From Halobacteriales archaeon QS_4_69_34 (lineage in GTDB: Archaea > Halobacteriota > Halobacteria > Halobacteriales > Halococcaceae): a stretch of DNA of 64,000 nucleotides. Shown here piece after piece: positions 13,945 to 20,700 of this stretch (the first letter of the stretch is position 1; each line of letters begins with the position of its first letter). The notes under the pieces were generated by a model that was given only the letters and a program-made list of their open reading frames with translations, made no database searches and was not told the DNA's origin. The DNA is taken from NCBI GenBank assembly GCA_003021045.1, contig PXRN01000003.1, positions 64,001-128,000 on the forward strand, given 5' to 3'. Made by a program: the position numbers and the translations under genes.

Positions 13945-14856
13945 CTACCGATAGCCGAGCGCGCGCAGGTGCTCGCAGACCGCCTCGTCGCTAGCATCCG
14001 AGCGGTGGTCGCTATCAGGCGTCTCGGCGACGGTCTCGCGCTGACCGTCGGCGACGACTGCCCACGGGACAGTCACAAGCTTGGGATGATATAATCCTGT
14101 CGGGTGGCCGTACTGTCGGAGTCCCAGCGGCGGGACGCGCTCGCCGAGCAACTCGCCGTGGTCGGCCGAGATCACGACTCGGCCCTCGATCCCGCTGAGT
14201 AGCTCGCACACGCTGTTGAGTGCGAGATCGAGGTTTTGCTGATAGGCCCGTCGGACGAGCTGCGGCGTAACCGACTCGTCGGTACTCCACTCACTTTCGC
14301 GCACGACGTCGGGGAACCGTTCGCCAAGCGACCCCAGAAACGGGGCATGGGGCTGGACGTAGTGGACGATATGACGTTTGCGAGGGTATCGATCGTGCAT
14401 ATCGAGCGCACGGCGAGTCACGGTGCCGGGCGTCACCACGGACTGGCCGTTGACTTCCTCCTGGCCGTCTTGCCAGACCCCCTCGACGGCGTGTAACTCG
14501 GCGTCGAGACTGTCGGCGTAGCGCTCGTAGTGTCCGTTCGCGGTCGTATAGACAGTATCGAGATAGGACTCACTACCAAAGGTTGCTCGCACCCAGTCGA
14601 GAGTGGTCGTGGCGGGGGAGGCCTGCGACGCAACCGCAGCGTCGAGGGCGTCCGCGGCGGCGAGCGCGTCGTACCGGCAGGCATCAAGGATGACGAGCGT
14701 ATCCCACGCTTCGGCCATTACATCAAGCGCGTCGGCGTCCGCCGGTGGGGAGTACCATCGCCGGGCAGCCTTGCGGGCGAGACCGTGGCGCGGACTCACG
14801 CTTGCGGCGTACTGCTCGCGCAGCGTCCGAAACTTCGATGTCAGCGGGAGGTCCAT
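13945..14856 (-). CDS. Sulfatase/alkaline phosphatase-fold protein
   Basis: 303 residues. LVILDACRYDAL gives the first metal-binding Asp and candidate nucleophile region, HIVHYVQPHAPFLG the middle His cluster, and VVISADHGELLGERV the conserved DHGE metal site. This short branch is common beside haloarchaeal glycosylation genes; the substrate (phospho- or sulfo-sugar, lipid phosphate) is not known. No signal peptide is seen, so it may act on the cytoplasmic side. Convergent with the membrane glycosyltransferase, with 171 bp between them. Confidence 0.88.
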   Translation of the reverse strand: MDLPLTSKFRTLREQYAASVSPRHGLARKAARRWYSPPADADALDVMAEAWDTLVILDACRYDALAAADALDAAVASQASPATTTLDWVRATFGSESYLDTVYTTANGHYERYADSLDAELHAVEGVWQDGQEEVNGQSVVTPGTVTRRALDMHDRYPRKRHIVHYVQPHAPFLGSLGERFPDVVRESEWSTDESVTPQLVRRAYQQNLDLALNSVCELLSGIEGRVVISADHGELLGERVPPLGLRQYGHPTGLYHPKLVTVPWAVVADGQRETVAETPDSDHRSDASDEAVCEHLRALGYR

Positions 14857-15194
14857 GCTACTCGTCGCTTCGGCAGCTCAAAAACGCTTTGTGGGAGTGA
14901 GTCGGCCCCTGCAGTCGAACGAGAGCACGAAGGGACACGACGGATCCACCATCGGAGCGGCGCTGGTAGTGGTGTGCTCGCGGCTGGCGTGGACGATCCG
15001 AGCCGGATCGAGTGCACGAGTGTGGCAACACGCGCGGAACGGTCGGCCGAATACGACGACTCGTATCCGTGAGGGGGAGTGCGATCTTCAGGCGCGAGAG
15101 AAGTGATCCACCTACTCTCGGGGGGACGACGGAAACGGGCGAGGTTGCAGTCGCCGGCACAAGCGGTTCATGCAGCGGAGGAGAAGCGAAGGCC
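14857..15194. other. Intergenic, no gene recognised
   Basis: 338 bp between divergent genes at 14856 (minus) and 15195 (plus). Open frames here have no acidic bias and no motif that I recognise. From here rightward the base composition begins to fall, marking the approach to the AT-richer island. Confidence 0.45.
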
Positions 15195-15485
15195 ATGGCA
15201 TCCGGATCCGACGAAGAGGCGATCTCGTGCGAACTCTGCGGGGAGGAGTTCAACCGGAGAGAGCAGCTCAACGAACATATGAAAGACGGTCACGATTCCA
15301 CCGGCGAAGAAACCCGAGGAGAAAGCGAGGGCGCTGCTGCCGCTTCCGGGGATGCGAGCGCATCGACGGGTTCGATGACCGTCGAAACCAACGAGTCACC
15401 GTCCGCCGCGGAGCCTGGCGAGGCAACCGGCCCCGGACAGGACGATGAGGTTCGTCCCGAGCCGGATGACAACAACGAGAACTGA
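15195..15485 (+). CDS. C2H2-like zinc-finger mini-protein with acidic tail
   Basis: 96 residues. One finger near the N-terminus: CELCGEEFNRREQLNEHMKDGH, i.e. CxxC then HxxxxH with a 12-residue finger between, close to the classical C2H2 spacing. The rest is a disordered Ser/Ala/Glu/Asp-rich tail. Such single-finger proteins are frequent in haloarchaea and are thought to bind nucleic acid or protein partners; no target is evident. ATG at 15195 follows a GGAGGAGAAG purine run. Confidence 0.78.
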   Translation: MASGSDEEAISCELCGEEFNRREQLNEHMKDGHDSTGEETRGESEGAAAASGDASASTGSMTVETNESPSAAEPGEATGPGQDDEVRPEPDDNNEN

Positions 15486-15500
15486 TTTAGCGGGGTAAAC

Positions 15501-15745
15501 CTATCGGGGGTCCTCGAGGTAGAGTTCGTTTTCCCCGTAGCGGTCGACATGCTCGCTGCTCAGGTCATTTCCATCGGAATCGTCCAGTCTCAGAAGTGTT
15601 TAACTTCGTCGGTGAGGCTGCCCTGCTCTTTGGTGGTCGATTCGACCGTAGCGTGATCGCCGTGGGCCTGCCTTACCCGTCCGAGTTGATCGTCTTCCGC
15701 GTTCAGGACGTTGCTATCTATACTATCGGTGAAATTTCGTGCCAT
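15501..15745 (-). pseudogene. Frameshifted PRC-barrel-like small protein
   Basis: ATG at 15745 opens a 51-codon frame (starts MARNFTDSIDSNVLNAED, ends LTDEVKHF) stopped by TGA at 15590-15592. One base out of phase, the same sense continues as LRLDDSDGNDLSSEHVDRYG and ENELYLEDPR to a stop at 15501-15503. Joined, the ~81 residues have the layout of small haloarchaeal PRC-barrel proteins (NADGxxxGxV...LTDxxxxxL...VxxxxxxELxL). A one-base loss near 15593 explains both halves. The AT-rich start region (TATATT just upstream) would be its promoter. Confidence 0.62.
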
Positions 15746-15949
15746 ATATTATGAACTGGAATCGAGGCCCCTATCGCCTCGTTGTTTGCTCTCGCCGGTC
15801 TCTCGATCCACCTACTCGGTGTCTGCTATCGGTCTCTACCGAGGAGTTCACGAGCGTGACGAGCAGGATTTGTGACGTACTGTCGAGAACGGACAGAGTA
15901 GGGCCTCCCACGTTACTTTCCACACTCGAGAACCAACAGGGTACATCGA

Positions 15950-16535
15950 TCGCCGCCTCGACTCCCATGAGAGTGTGATGGAATCGCCAGGGCTCAGTTG
16001 ATCGAATATTTCCGCCGCTGACCTCCTCGTTGGACGATCTCCACGTAGGGATCTTCACCCCAGCCGAGCCTGAGGCCAACACTACGGAATCCTCCTCTAC
16101 CTCGAACACTCCATCCTCGATCGAGGCCTTCCGGGATTGTGACTCGATTTCGACCGTGGACTCGTCGGTCGTCGGATCGAGTTCGGACACCCGTATTGAA
16201 GTTTTGATGTTCCCGTATCCATCCACGTGACAGACGGTAATCTCCGGCTTTACCGGTATGTCGTCCAGAGATCGCTCTTTTCCTATCGAGTCCGGCTCTC
16301 CACGAGCGACTTCGGCAACGTGGGCGGGGAAGTGGTCGCGAGAACGGAACTGAGAGCCTCTCTCGGGAGCGTCCACCTCTCGGAATTCCTGGATGTTGTC
16401 CTTGATGAACGGTAGACTGTAGCCGCCGTCGACTGCCAGGACGGGGACACCGTTTCCTAGTTCGAGATAGCGGAGCTGTTCGCCTTCGTTCGATCGTCCC
16501 GGAGCTCTGCGTCCGCCATCCCTCTCGGGGCTCGA
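15950..16535 (-). pseudogene. SAM hydroxide adenosyltransferase (DUF62) remnant, 5'-truncated and frameshifted
   Basis: The minus strand retains about the last 180 residues of a haloarchaeal SAM hydrolase in pieces: APRGMADAELRDD, then a frame change near 16493 to SNEGEQLRYLELGNGVPVLAV, GSQFRSRDHFP and VCHVDGYGNIKTSIRVSEL, another change near 16050 to GEDPYVEIVQRGG, and a last one to SAAEIFDQLSPGDSITLSWE. The family normally starts ~70 residues earlier, and that part is absent. It once hydrolysed SAM to adenosine and methionine. At least three frameshifts plus the missing N-terminus show it is dead. Confidence 0.75.
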
Positions 16536-16558
16536 CGCCGCTTGCCTATGCGCGCCCA

Positions 16559-16819
16559 ATGTTGAATATCCGCTACTACCGAAGGGAGACCGTGTCGGAG
16601 GACGATCCCCACGAGCGCGATATCACGCTCGCAAAGGAAAAAGACGAGGAGAGCCCACCAGAAGAGGCCGAGGCAGAGGCCGAGCGCGAGGAAGCCGCCG
16701 AGGAAGCACGTGAGGACGAGGCCGAGCAGGCCCGCGAGGAAGCCAAACAGCGCGAAGCAGCCGCCCGCGAGGCCGAAAACCCGGACAATCACCGCGACGA
16801 ACCACCGCACAACAGCTGA
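16559..16819 (+). CDS. Small charged coiled-coil protein (uncertain)
   Basis: 86 residues if ATG 16559 is used, 76 if GTG 16592 is used (VSEDDPHERDITLAKEKDEE follows). The body is almost only Glu, Ala, Arg, Asp and Gln with a heptad-like pattern, AEREEAAEEAREDEAEQ and similar. The opposite strand over the same bases is an implausibly uniform hydrophobic frame, which is what a Glu/Ala/Arg helix gives when read backwards. Acidic composition favours the plus strand. No family recognised. Confidence 0.45.
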   Translation: MLNIRYYRRETVSEDDPHERDITLAKEKDEESPPEEAEAEAEREEAAEEAREDEAEQAREEAKQREAAAREAENPDNHRDEPPHNS

Positions 16820-17298
16820 CGAGCGAAGCCGACGACTGCCTCCGATCGAACGATCACATCCGATAGAGAAACGGGCATCGGTATCGGTCCCGGCGAGTGG
16901 GACCCTCGGACCCCGCCCATCCTGTCTTCCCTGGCGGAAGGAGGTCGACTACTGGCTCACGAAAATATCGAACCGTATCGGCACGAACCGCTACGACGAT
17001 AGTTCCTGTTGAACTGTGTACGACGCCAGGAACCCACCGATCGTAAGCGTTCTATCAGCGATCGGCAATGTTAGACTATTCTACAGTTTGACGCTGCTAG
17101 ATTGAGGCTGAACTGAGCCGAGTTCCTCGAGTGTGGTCCAACCGCCTCGAAGAACTCCAGGTGGAGGTCACGAACTGCTCGGAAGTACTGTCGTTGGACG
17201 CGGATCGGGCCCACACCAGCGACCGTCGGCGACTCTCTCGTTGAACTCGTCGGGTGGGTCGACTCCGAAGAGTAGGGGGAGACGCGTTCGAGCAGGCC
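16820..17298. other. Gene-free stretch, possibly decayed mobile DNA
   Basis: 479 bp at the 3' side of the gene at 17299. It contains AT-rich patches (for example 17070-17110) and several in-frame stops on every frame. I looked for transposase blocks and saw none clear enough to call. It is likely decayed sequence of the accessory island. Confidence 0.4.
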
Positions 17299-17739
17299 CT
17301 ATTCGCTCTCTATGCCGAACTCCTCAGCGAGTTGTTCGATCATTCGTTCTTGTGATATGTTTCCTTTCACATCCGTATCCTGAGTGAGCGATTGAAGCTC
17401 CCTGTACGATAGCTCTTCGAGTTCCTCTCGTGTGTCGGGTTTTTCGTCAACTGGTCCGTCGTCCGTGGAGTCTTCATCACTCGCTGTTCCGTCGCTAACA
17501 GCTTCATCTTCTGTGGGTTCATCGGATTCGCTTCCGGCCGCGCCGAATGACGCATCGAGTTTTCGTCCAAGGACGGCGCCGATCTCGCGCCCGGCCGCCG
17601 AACCGAGGCTACCGAGTACTGTTTCGAGCTGCATCTGCTGGAAGAGCTCGTAGAGATCCGTCTCCTGGAGTATCTCTTCGATGTCGATGTGCTTGAGTAG
17701 CTCTGCCGTGCCGTCTCTGTGCGCTGATTTATCGCTCAT
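17299..17739 (-). CDS. Glycine-spaced helix protein A with SAP-like tail (unknown function)
   Basis: 146 residues, soluble, acidic. Residues ~13-45 are three ~10-residue repeats, HIDIEEILQE / TDLYELFQQ / MQLETVLGSL. Next comes AAGREIGAVLGRKLD, a helix with Gly every three to four residues and GR pairs, shared with the genes at 17833 and 19878. A disordered Asp/Glu/Ser linker leads to a C-terminal module TREELEELSYRELQSLTQD... with ERMIEQLAEEFG, resembling SAP/Rho-N helical folds. GGAGG at 17748-17752 is 8 bases before ATG, as expected for the second gene of an operon; the previous gene ends 93 bp upstream. Function unknown. Confidence 0.8.
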   Translation of the reverse strand: MSDKSAHRDGTAELLKHIDIEEILQETDLYELFQQMQLETVLGSLGSAAGREIGAVLGRKLDASFGAAGSESDEPTEDEAVSDGTASDEDSTDDGPVDEKPDTREELEELSYRELQSLTQDTDVKGNISQERMIEQLAEEFGIESE

Positions 17740-17832
17740 GATCTGATCCTCCGAGTTCCGAGGGCTACTCGCCAGAGAACTATCTCGTTTTTCGACACCC
17801 AGCGCCTCACTCCGGTTGAACCGTTCATTGTC

Positions 17833-19164
17833 TCAACCGTCGGTAGATTCTTCGTCGTCGGCGTTCCCGCCGAGCGAGCGCGCGATCGCCTCTCCGATCT
17901 GCCGGCCGGCCGTCTCCCCCAGCTGCTGGCCTGCTGTCCTGACGGCTGCCCCATCGCTGTTTTCAGAGGGGTCCTCTCCCGAAAGTTCGTTGATGATACT
18001 TGCAGCTCTTCGGGCAGACTGGTCGACATCCGGCAGTGTGTTCAAGACGCGGGCTCCGGCGCTCCCCGCTCGGCTCTGGTCGCCTCCTGATCCGTCGTCA
18101 CCGCTGTTTTCTTCGGCTTCCTCGGGCTCTTCGTTCTCTTCGTTTTCACCCGATCCGTCGTGGAGCCAGCCGAGGGGCGCGGTTAGCACGCTCCAAACTC
18201 GGCTCGCGGCACCCCGCAGCCAGTCTATCGGCTTCGTCGCCAGCCCCCAGGCGCGGCTTGCGAGGCTGCGAAGGGCGCTAATCGGCGACGTGAGCGAGTT
18301 TACAATAGTGCTTACGAGTTTAGTGATGCTATTGAGCAATCGGTTGAGCAGCACCGACAGCGGTCCGCCACCGAGCAGTCCCGCAACTGCGGATAGCAAG
18401 TTCCCGAGCAGGTTTCCGCCCCCCGGAATGGCTCGAACATCGAGAACGACCTCATGGAGATCGACCTCCAGTCCAAGCAGATCGAGAAACAGCCCTTCGA
18501 GGTCGAGATAGAGGACCGTCGTGCCGCGCTCGGTTCCGTGGCTCTTCGATTCCTCCTCCGAAACGTCGCCTTCCGCCTCCTTTGTCTCGTCCCCGTCATC
18601 CTCCTCGCTGGTATCGACAGTCAGCGTGATCTCTTCGTCCCCGCCATCGATCTCGACGGCTTGCTCGGTCCCTTCTCCGTCAACCTCGGCCTCGATGGTA
18701 TATTCACCGCTTTCGAGTTCGAAGTTGGCCTCGCCACCAGAATCGGTTTCCTGCTGTTCGGGGTCGTCGAGAAATCCCTCGACGAGCCCCATGTCGGAGC
18801 TTTTCACCGCAACGTCCGCTTGTGAAACGGGTTCGTCCTCTCCGGTCTCGACGAGTACCGTTAGTTCGTATACGTCCTCCCCCTCTTCGCTTTGTTCAGG
18901 TTCTTCGTTATCCTCCTCGGACTCGTTGCTTTCTTCGGTGTCTCCTTCTTTCTCGTCGCCTTCGTCTTCCTCCTCAGAGCTATCGCTCTCTTCTGGATCC
19001 GCGTCTTGTTCCGCTCCCTCGCTCTCCTCGTGCTCTTGCTCGGTTTCCCCGTCTTGCTCATCGCTGGCGTCGTCGTTGTCGGGGTCGCCACCGTCTGTGA
19101 GTACTGGATTCTTCCATGTGTGCTTCCTGGAGAGCTTTTCATCGTTTCCGCTGTCGAAACTCAT
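17833..19164 (-). CDS. Multidomain protein B: acidic head, beta-sandwich, GNLLGNLL domain, glycine-spaced helix
   Basis: 443 residues. Order: a ~90-residue Glu/Asp/Ser-rich head; an Ig/carboxypeptidase-regulatory-like segment (VYELTVLVETGEDEPVSQAD to EITLTVDTSEED); another acidic linker; LYLDLEGLFLDLLGLEVDLH followed by VPGG-type AIPGGGNLLGNLLSAVAGLLGG; amphipathic helices (SLASRAWGLATKPIDWLRGA and the similar SRVWSVLTAPLGWLHDG); and a C-terminal AGQQLGETAGRQIGEAIARS helix shared with its neighbours. The GNLLGNLL block is a domain of unknown function I recall from actinobacterial and haloarchaeal proteins. No signal peptide. First gene of a transcript with the 17299 gene. Confidence 0.85.
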   Translation of the reverse strand: MSFDSGNDEKLSRKHTWKNPVLTDGGDPDNDDASDEQDGETEQEHEESEGAEQDADPEESDSSEEEDEGDEKEGDTEESNESEEDNEEPEQSEEGEDVYELTVLVETGEDEPVSQADVAVKSSDMGLVEGFLDDPEQQETDSGGEANFELESGEYTIEAEVDGEGTEQAVEIDGGDEEITLTVDTSEEDDGDETKEAEGDVSEEESKSHGTERGTTVLYLDLEGLFLDLLGLEVDLHEVVLDVRAIPGGGNLLGNLLSAVAGLLGGGPLSVLLNRLLNSITKLVSTIVNSLTSPISALRSLASRAWGLATKPIDWLRGAASRVWSVLTAPLGWLHDGSGENEENEEPEEAEENSGDDGSGGDQSRAGSAGARVLNTLPDVDQSARRAASIINELSGEDPSENSDGAAVRTAGQQLGETAGRQIGEAIARSLGGNADDEESTDG

Positions 19165-19187
19165 GGTGGTGGCTTGTTCGCCCCACC

Positions 19188-19197
19188 CTTAAATAAG
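19188..19197 (-). promoter_or_regulatory. TATA box of the 19164 gene
   Basis: CTTATTTAAG on the minus strand, centred 29 bases before the ATG at 19164. Archaeal transcripts start about 25-27 bases after the TATA centre, so the message would be nearly leaderless. The stop codon of the decayed IS6 transposase (19198-19200) touches the box directly. Confidence 0.7.
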
Positions 19198-19741
19198 CTA
19201 ACTCGGCAAATGCGGGCAGGGCAGCGTTCGGGGAAGCCGGTTCCATGCGAACGCTCGCAACCACTCGTCGACAGTTTCTCCCTCGGCGTGACTGAAGCAG
19301 TTCGGGAACAAGGTGGCCGTTTTCCTTCAAAGACGGGTTCGACGCTGTTGCGTTCGCCGGTTTCTCGTAGCGGAACTGAAAGCCGTGCCGGCGACACGCG
19401 GCGTACAACGGCGTCGCGCCGCCGACGAGGACGGCGGCGTCGCCGACGTCGTGTCTTCCGCGGAGGCCGGTGGGAAAAACGCATGAGCGAGAACGGCGGT
19501 TCCGGTCGGTCCGAGCTTGGTGGAACGGATCGTTCAGCCGGGGTCGACGCCAGCGGAGAGCCAGTAGTCGTCGAGCCGGATTACGGTCTCGACGCCGAGA
19601 ACGGATACAGTATTCGAAAGCGACAGTTACGCGAGATGGGGTTGGGTGCCGAGCTTCGCCAACAGCCGCGGCGTTGCTTCGCTCCACGGAGTCCACGTCG
19701 ATCCGGTCAATACGCTCGCCTAAGCCGGCAGTTTCGGGCAT
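19198..19741 (-). pseudogene. IS6-family transposase remnant
   Basis: Reads as a decayed haloarchaeal IS6-type DDE transposase. The start MPETAGLGERIDRIDVD (ATG 19741) matches the family N-terminus; after a shortened, scrambled middle come HDVGDAAVLVGGATPLYAAC and RRHGFQFRYE, then in a second frame GERNSVEPVF (DDE region with the E/RN block), then in a third frame FPNCFSHAEGETVDEWLRAF and a stop at 19198-19200. About 181 codons against ~210 in intact copies, so there is also internal loss. Terminal inverted repeats were not identified. It lies between the two transcripts of the glycine-helix genes. Confidence 0.75.
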
Positions 19742-19877
19742 AGAGCGCCGCGAGATCGCCGCGCCTCGTCGTTCGATCCTTCCCCGACACCGCCGACGAG
19801 ACCCTTAGCGGACACTACACTCGGCAGATGCGGCTTCACCGATAGGAAAACGCCCGAAAGCGCTGGAAAGGAGAGGG

Positions 19878-20297
19878 CTACTCATACCCCCGTTCCTCGA
19901 GTTCCTCGGTCAGGTCTTCGGCTCTTGCCTGTAACGCTTCGTCGGACATTTCTTCCAGGTCCGCTGAATCGTCCCCAGCCGACTTTTCTTCGTTGTTCGC
20001 CCTGTCTTCGTCGTCCGCTTCACGTCTCTCCGCCGCTGTGTCGTCCTCGTTGGTTATCTGTTGGAGCTGCTCGTCGAGCTTCCGTCCGACGAGTTCGCCG
20101 AACAGACGGCCGACCTGTTCGCCGAGTTCGCGCCCCACCGACTCGAATCCGCCCTCTCCACTGCCGAGGCTTTCGAGCACTCCACCCCTGATCCCGTTTT
20201 GTAAGCTCTCGACGAACGCCGAAGAACCGCTACTGCCTGACTGGTCGCCCGTTTCTCCGCTTTCGCTCTCTCCCTGGACCGTTTCTGTATCGCTCAC
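19878..20297 (-). CDS. Glycine-spaced helix protein C (unknown function)
   Basis: 139 residues from GTG at 20297. A Ser/Gly/Glu-rich head is followed by SAFVESLQNGIRGGVLESLG and the extended helix SVGRELGEQVGRLFGELVG + RKLDEQL, with Gly at every third or fourth position and GR/GE pairs; this matches AGREIGAVLGRKLD in the 17299 gene. An acidic linker leads to DLEEMSDEALQARAEDLTEE, similar to the start of the C-terminal module there. GTG 20297 is chosen over the frame start at 20369 because a TATA box lies 30 bases upstream. Same strand and island as the other two, with an IS6 remnant between. Confidence 0.8.
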   Translation of the reverse strand: MSDTETVQGESESGETGDQSGSSGSSAFVESLQNGIRGGVLESLGSGEGGFESVGRELGEQVGRLFGELVGRKLDEQLQQITNEDDTAAERREADDEDRANNEEKSAGDDSADLEEMSDEALQARAEDLTEELEERGYE

Positions 20298-20322
20298 TAC
20301 CGATCTATTGTGGCGTTTGGTA

Positions 20323-20330
20323 CTTATATA
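20323..20330 (-). promoter_or_regulatory. TATA box of the 20297 gene
   Basis: TATATAAG on the minus strand, centred 30 bases before GTG 20297. It predicts a leader of only a few bases and supports GTG 20297 as the start. Confidence 0.72.
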
Positions 20331-20678
20331 TGACCCTCGCAAGTGCCGAAAGCGGTGTTCGGATGACACTCGGTACTTCAGAAAGCTCCGCGGTGGACCG
20401 TTTCCGAAACGTAAGTTCGATCGACGGGGTGGCGCCGAGCAACTGCTGAGGAGGGCGCTTCAACTGAGACCACCGAACTGTCACAGTCGGGGGCGTTCGC
20501 CGCGCTGTACGGCCGGCCGCCTCCGGAGCCCCGGCGGCGGTCGAGACGCCGCCACCGAACGTCCGCTATCGCCTCGACGAGGGAGATGCCGGCGAAACAG
20601 CCATCGAGTGGAGCGCACTCGACGGTGCTTCGTATACACCCGGACGTCCCGTTCGGGTCCTCCGGGCGCGGTCCCAAC

Positions 20679-20700
20679 GCCTAAGTTTAGGCCGGCCTAA
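20679..20700. promoter_or_regulatory. Palindromic operator candidate before the oxidoreductase operon
   Basis: TTAGGCCGGCCTAA (20687-20700) is a perfect 14-bp palindrome ending 10 bases before ATG 20711. A second half-site, GCCTAA at 20679-20684, pairs with the TTAGGC at 20687-20692 across two bases, so three half-sites are stacked. TTAGG...CCTAA arms resemble DtxR/IdeR-type metal-repressor sites. At this position a bound repressor would cover the likely transcription start. Confidence 0.5.

Follow-up and report, generated by a model that had tools for sequence, protein, structure and literature searches.

Background

The described systems closest to the one reported here are the haloarchaeal gas vesicle proteins GvpF to GvpM and GvpO, known from the p-vac region of Halobacterium salinarum and its relatives, the external wall protein GvpC (PF05465), and the vesicle-clustering proteins GvpU and GvpT of Bacillus megaterium, which are reported to be exclusive to Bacillota (PMC10903477). 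The GvpI of Halobacterium heterodimerises with GvpH, and its loss leads to longer vesicles (PMC9501494). Vac regions devoid of gvpC are known in Halopiger, Haladaptatus, Natrinema, Natrialba and Natronobacterium, and many haloarchaea with such gvp clusters were reported to be vesicle-less for reasons that are unexplained (PMC4390858). The present work deals with three neighbouring genes, P1, P2 and P3, in a 64,000-nt stretch of contig PXRN01000003.1 from Halobacteriales archaeon QS_4_69_34; the whole of this stretch is referred to as the window. A sequence-only reading had found no known haloarchaeal complex to match these genes, but their homologues belong with the gas vesicle genes, a context that this reading had overlooked.

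The module formed by the three genes resembles the GvpF-M and GvpO set in its neighbourhood, in its co-occurrence and in being made of small proteins without enzymatic domains, but the sequences of P1-P3 match no Gvp family, and none of the Halobacterium-type clusters examined contains these genes. With GvpC it has in common a possible role at the outer surface, and the genomes sampled carry either GvpC or the module, not both. The module is nevertheless devoid of the 32-residue repeats, displays a glycine zipper instead of the Arg/Leu/Phe binding pattern of GvpC, and its genes do not lie between gvpA and gvpN. GvpU and GvpT provide a proposed working analogy only, namely clustering via an extended GvpA C-terminus, no sequence match between them and the module having been found. 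Gas vesicles, protein-walled bubbles that serve for flotation, are of course already known; what is new, within the literature searched, is an undescribed accessory module, no paper describing P1-P3 having been found in the open-access literature (subscription papers lay mostly outside this search). The favoured reading, whose probability is put at roughly three in four, assigns P1-P3 to GvpC-less gas vesicles as accessory proteins: P1 and P3 would oligomerise through a helix zipper, and P2 would be the partner that binds the shell.

Association of the module with gas vesicle genes

The link of the module to gas vesicles is well supported. Across 295 genomes of the order, surveyed with a P2 core profile and for GvpA, the former was detected in 99 genomes and the latter in 122. 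Both were present in 97 genomes, P2 only in 2, GvpA only in 25 and neither in 171 (Fisher p 3.6e-51, which is only a guide because the genomes are not independent and no phylogenetic correction was applied), GvpA being found in 97 of the 99 P2 genomes versus 25 of the 196 P2-less ones. The two exceptions are a 70%-complete metagenome-assembled genome (MAG) with GvpN (G097) and a genome with a weak match only (G024); among the counted P2 matches, that of G007 comes from an exported protein related to the core. P2 falls inside the gvp-positive set throughout the families in which it is strongly matched, f1, f4, f5, f7, f12, f14 and f17 among them (G097 via its GvpN). The hypothesis that the module replaces GvpN was discarded, many P2 genomes having GvpN.

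This association is also visible in gene order. A search of the family of the window (18 genomes) located homologues of P1, P2 and P3 that occur together; GvpA and GvpF/L were present in 18/18. Mapping of the gvp loci with hidden Markov models (HMMs) revealed, in the Halococcus genomes of H. thailandensis and G008, a gvpF-G-H-I-J-K-L-M-P3-P2-P1 array on one strand with gvpA-O divergent. In four other genomes of the Halococcus genus (G001, G005, G006 and G009), P2-P3 lie between gvpH and gvpI, P2 overlaps gvpH by 4 nt and P1 is located beside gvpO. The same insertion of P2-P3 can be observed in Halocatena, and P2 and P3 are convergent to gvpM in the MAGs of genus g3. A scan of the collection gave Halocatena, Halohasta, Halalkalicoccus paucihalophilus, Haladaptatus, Haloarcula amylovorans and MAGs as further hosts; the module stands within or adjoining a gvp operon in Halococcus, Halocatena, Halohasta, Halalkalicoccus paucihalophilus and several MAGs. 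In the genome of the window itself, an A-O-F-G-H-I-J-K-L-M cluster without P1-P3 is found on contig C9, and the triad on contig C3. Co-occurrence of homologues had been set beforehand as a check: P1, P2 and P3 are neighbours in many genera, and an outcome in which they never co-occur was not seen. The remark that no enzyme is encoded alongside also holds, the module being conserved and co-inherited without one. Two side observations concern these loci. G008 possesses a second, decayed-looking gvp cluster (L067:800-5700) with a short GvpF fragment, a transposase-like open reading frame (ORF) after gvpJ and no GvpL found, and TIGR00341-type membrane proteins occur near several gvp or module loci (L017:3019-4398, L157:9866-11266, L106:13098-14459 and L107:14953-16254; two annotated, two recognised by resemblance).

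The module and GvpC were not found together in this sample. GvpC repeats near gvpA were found in nine genomes, with P2 in 0/9 as against 97/113 GvpC-less genomes (p 1.7e-7); three further PF05465 matches, all weak, were left uncounted, two of them being remote from gvp in genomes of the Halococcus genus and the third belonging to a genome that has no GvpA. In Pfam searches, no PF05465 match was obtained in P1-P3, nor in the genome of the window. Seven GvpC-less gvp loci without P1-P3 (four Halococcus, three Haladaptatus) each contain one zipper-plus-tail protein in the cluster, and none was seen in the five GvpC loci examined. From the mutual exclusion, the module could be a stabiliser of the outer wall. 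The GvpA tail after FLHY also differs, with 31-49 residues in GvpC-less loci versus 19-25 in GvpC loci. In the GvpC-less clusters L017, L062, L155 and L163 this longer tail is acidic and often carries an SSP/TSP motif near its end, which makes it a candidate docking site.

In Haladaptatus, Haloarcula and a Natrialbaceae-like family (f7, presumably Natrialbaceae), P2, P3 and P1 are found together with gvpA far off or on another replicon. In these stand-alone operons the gene order is often P2-P3-P1, with genes overlapping by 4 nt, and a fourth gene resembling the gene, termed X, at the gvpI position usually comes last. The X model matches ORFs at this position in Halobacterium-type clusters (E 3e-11 and 2e-13), and alignment shows that the fourth gene and the gvpI-position gene have a C-terminal STMP/STVP motif in common. 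Gene X agrees with GvpI in lying between gvpH and gvpJ with the conserved C-terminal motif. The fourth gene was recognised at E ~1e-30 or better in L084, L092 and L093 and at ~1e-3 to 1e-11 elsewhere; in L138 and L140 only its position and motif identify it. The GvpI of Halobacterium is a basic protein of pI 10.8; X does not conform to it in this respect, its sequences being visibly acidic, and they also have a long extension at the N-terminus. A long GvpI form with an extension was noted earlier in Natrialba magadii (Nmag_0338; PMC3403918). The resemblance to GvpI is confined to this fourth gene: P1-P3 are not GvpI-like, and the stand-alone GvpI-like gene is itself without the RLYG.R end. On two Haladaptatus plasmids, the NCBI annotation pipeline PGAP labels P1-P3 'hypothetical protein', as it does the fourth gene on the plasmid having one.

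Glycine zippers of P1 and P3

Known glycine zippers (GxxxGxxxG) are mostly membrane helices. P1 and P3 resemble them in having an invariant glycine at each fourth residue, but differ in that each turn of their helix bears charged residues; it is more probably soluble or bound to a surface. Their tetrad, G-R/E-x-L/V/F, appears too charged for membrane crossing. The longest runs of glycine at every fourth residue number 4 in P1, 4 in P2 and 5 in P3, and were reached in 70, 1275 and 63 of 20,000 composition-preserving shuffles respectively, so that runs of this length are uncommon by chance for P1 and P3, whereas that of P2 is nothing out of the ordinary. In alignments, G46/G50/G54 of P1 are invariant across 15 homologues and G55/G59/G63/G67/G71 of P3 across 18. 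These homologues are mostly only ~25-40% identical to the window proteins, and the zipper is the most conserved feature of both families, most of the remainder having diverged. Such conservation is stronger evidence for the zipper than the shuffle statistics. Profile comparison indicates homology between P1 and P3 over the N-terminus and the zipper (hhalign probability 97.9, E 4.5e-13), and among 1,056 called genes of the inspected loci, runs of at least six glycines at spacing four are almost confined to the zipper family and one glycine-rich DnaJ.

A helix common to all three proteins, the central claim of the sequence-only reading, is retained as a conserved feature for P1 and P3 but not for P2. 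The C-terminal helix of P2 is found only in the window, H. thailandensis and G008, the P2 of other lineages stopping before it. The helix is thus not common to the three families: GxxxGxxxG is conserved in P1 and P3, and found in P2 in one lineage only.

Organisation of the triad and domains of its proteins

The three genes are open reading frames where they had been placed, and the acidic linkers, the cited motifs and the two near-leaderless TATA promoters of P3 and P2 can all be seen in the sequence (Table 1). Leaderless archaeal genes typically have a TATA box 24-26 nt ahead of the start codon. A longer in-frame ORF from 20369 is also present for P3, but the GTG at 20297 is preferred because the TATA box and the homologues favour it. 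P2 and P1 are spaced by 93 nt, and P1 has a Shine-Dalgarno sequence, unlike P2 and P3 with their TATA boxes, which suggests that it is co-transcribed with P2. A scan for bacterial promoters and terminators gave no excess over shuffles and was uninformative. No Pfam or NCBIfam family covers P1, P2 or P3 above its cut-off.

Table 1. Features of the triad genes and their products (window coordinates)
Feature	Position	Strand	Description
P1	17299..17739	minus	146 aa: glycine-zipper helix and acidic linker, then a putative helix-loop-helix (HeH, SAP/Rho_N-like) domain at the C-terminus
P1 residues 104-141	17317..17430	minus	three-helix C-terminal domain, putatively SAP/Rho_N-like; AlphaFold2 predicted local distance difference test (pLDDT) ~90 or more
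P1 residues 29-65	17545..17655	minus	long predicted helix with G46/G50/G54/G58; AlphaFold2 pLDDT ~52-65
Shine-Dalgarno GGAGG	17748..17752	minus	8 nt before P1 start
P2	17833..19164	minus	443 aa: acidic N-terminus, Ig-like domain, conserved core, hydrophobic helices, acidic linker, C-terminal zipper helix
P2 residues 408-431	17872..17943	minus	C-terminal glycine-spaced helix; window lineage and two Halococcus only
P2 residues 215-266	18367..18522	minus	conserved core VLYLDLEGLFLDLLGLEVDL..NLLGNLLSAVAGLL, in all P2 homologues
P2 residues 98-183	18616..18873	minus	Ig-like / carboxypeptidase-regulatory-like beta domain; missing from P2 in several other lineages
TATA-like box TTATTTAAG	19188..19196	minus	24 nt before P2 ATG
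P3	19878..20297	minus	139 aa: acidic N-terminus, five-glycine zipper helix, acidic linker, C-terminal ELQ-type tail
P3 C-terminal tail LEEMSDEALQARAEDLTEELEERGYE	19881..19958	minus	tail also on other zipper proteins of gvp loci
P3 residues 52-78	20064..20144	minus	glycine-zipper helix with G55/G59/G63/G67/G71
TATA box TATATAAG	20323..20330	minus	26 nt before P3 GTG (leaderless)

The C-terminal domain of P1 may resemble the HeH domains of SAP and Rho N-terminal type and DUF7440 (PF24224) through its predicted fold and a weak sequence similarity, but it scores below the curated cut-offs and nucleic-acid binding is not implied. Its best Foldseek neighbours are FAN1, 3'hExo, Rho and SAP domains, none of them significant (E 0.8 or worse), and DUF7440 was rejected as the family of P1 (18.9 bits for a gathering cut-off of 25). 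The strongest order-wide matches of DUF7440 examined are the tails of ribosomal protein S3 and Hsp20. The S3 protein of two other lineages (L011:844-1791 and L013:1483-2484) carries the putative HeH tail of P1, SYRELQ..KANL, after an acidic linker, and the Hsp20 proteins of G051 (L014:1498-2127 and L016:1498-2229) end in the same tail, which seems to be a mobile C-terminal domain within the order. Besides P1 relatives and these tails, the P1 C-terminal model matches only the P3 tails, weakly. A kinship with the GvpC C-terminal domain of G039 and G294 was rejected, the likeness being visible by eye only; the P1 C-terminal HMM left both GvpC proteins unmatched even at E 10 among 9,274 ORFs.

For P2, AlphaFold2 gives a low-confidence core, helices at residues 252-327 and 408-431, and a confident Ig-like domain with structural matches to carboxypeptidase-D and pilin Ig-type folds and a weak Pfam match. 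Exported-looking proteins ending in the P2 core were also observed (L091:9662-10207, L052:8763-9401 and L053:3922-4527), one from a Caldilineaceae and two haloarchaeal ones with Tat-like signals. In these relatives a Cys replaces the Ser of NLLGNLLS in the module, and the two scanned gave no Pfam match.

The triad is located in a low-GC stretch of the window (14000-20700, ~59-62% versus ~70% around) that also contains a single C2H2 zinc-finger protein and a SAM hydroxide adenosyltransferase-like ORF. A mobile or viral origin was considered and dropped, no tRNA having been found in the window and no P2 relative on viral contigs. The low GC would fit a recent transfer from Halococcus, yet the protein identities are not above those of the gvp genes, and this origin was rejected as well.

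Proposed mechanism and alternative explanations

The module probably assists in building, coating or bundling gas vesicles of a type that has received little study, by a mechanism that is inferred from the features above. The helices of P1 and P3 would pack face to face into homo- or hetero-oligomers, and the P2 core and hydrophobic helices would bind the vesicle wall or an accessory Gvp. The acidic linkers would maintain the solubility of the assembly in molar salt, and may also touch adjacent vesicles. The resulting coat or scaffold, possibly docked on the longer acidic C-terminal tail of GvpA, would reinforce, shape or bundle the GvpC-less vesicles; in the organism of the window, the triad would act in trans on the gvp cluster of another contig. 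Several points weigh against this interpretation. The module is unlinked to gvp in many genomes, the genomes are not independent with family f7 supplying a large share of the counts, and GvpC-positive genomes number only nine. AlphaFold2 confidence is low for the zipper and the core. Since the P2 core also occurs in exported non-gvp proteins and the P1 C-terminal domain on S3 and Hsp20, neither domain alone implies gas vesicles. Lastly, vesicles may not form under known conditions, because the named GvpC-less species are described as Vac-negative despite an 11-gene cluster (PMC4390858); the entire system may be silent under laboratory conditions or serve some other purpose.

The main rival is a role in assembly or length control, because the loss of GvpI lengthens Halobacterium vesicles: the module and its GvpI-like partner would serve the GvpF-M nucleation complex at an early stage, as a chaperone or by regulating length, and would not belong to the finished vesicle. 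It is suggested by the exact insertion of P2-P3 between gvpH and gvpI in several genera and by the regular presence of a GvpI-like gene in the stand-alone operon, whereas the mutual exclusion with GvpC points to the outer surface, and the presence of a single zipper protein in some species is compatible with structure and regulation alike. This explanation is granted somewhat less than an even chance, and the confidence placed in it overlaps with that in the favoured reading because both include the gas vesicle part. The Vac-negative species that have kept their cluster could also be taken to mean that cells which have abandoned flotation use the gvp proteins and the module for a gas-free or non-buoyant protein structure, to which the co-occurrence would then be due. 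This is unlikely, as homologues of GvpA, J, M, F, L, K and O pass the curated cut-offs or match by HMM with open frames, and the expression conditions may simply be unrecognised.

Nor can much credit be given to a separate function, for example in stress or in the envelope, by which the module would merely share neighbourhoods and hosts with gvp. Stand-alone operons do lie far from gvp, some on plasmids among stress and transport genes, and the recurrence of both domains elsewhere goes in the same direction; but the near-constant company of GvpA in P2 genomes (with GvpN in one more), the translational overlap with gvpH and the GvpI-like fourth gene all argue against it. As for the triad of the window itself, it could be non-functional, either as a relic in decay or as an imported fragment. 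Its GC is 59.9% and its third-position GC 0.58-0.67, against a GC of 71.6% for the gvp cluster of the same genome and a third-position GC of ~0.87-0.92 in the host genes compared; P3 and P2 are split by a 713-nt gap in which no convincing homologous sequence was found, and the triad and the gvp cluster are on separate contigs. Yet the three frames are intact, the invariant residues are kept, promoter or ribosome-binding signals are present, and the proteins are 48-56% identical to those of H. thailandensis, a level that lies inside the span of the gvp proteins (43-79%), so that a loss of function is improbable.

Implications for GvpC-less haloarchaea

Returning to accessory proteins of GvpC-less vesicles, a broader version can be put forward more tentatively, as a possibility that is rather doubtful for now: GvpC-less haloarchaea would possess a second gas vesicle protein set, made of a P1/P3 zipper coat or bundling scaffold, the shell-binding P2 and a paralogue of GvpI. 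This set, in many cases encoded in a distant operon and acting in trans, would replace GvpC and control the timing of vesicle formation. If true, this timing control would explain the species scored as vesicle-less. The module is tied to the GvpC-less class and has no annotation in the records examined; it names the genes to be tested. Heterologous expression of GvpC-less gvp clusters without it, including in the engineering of ultrasound reporters, may have omitted needed parts.

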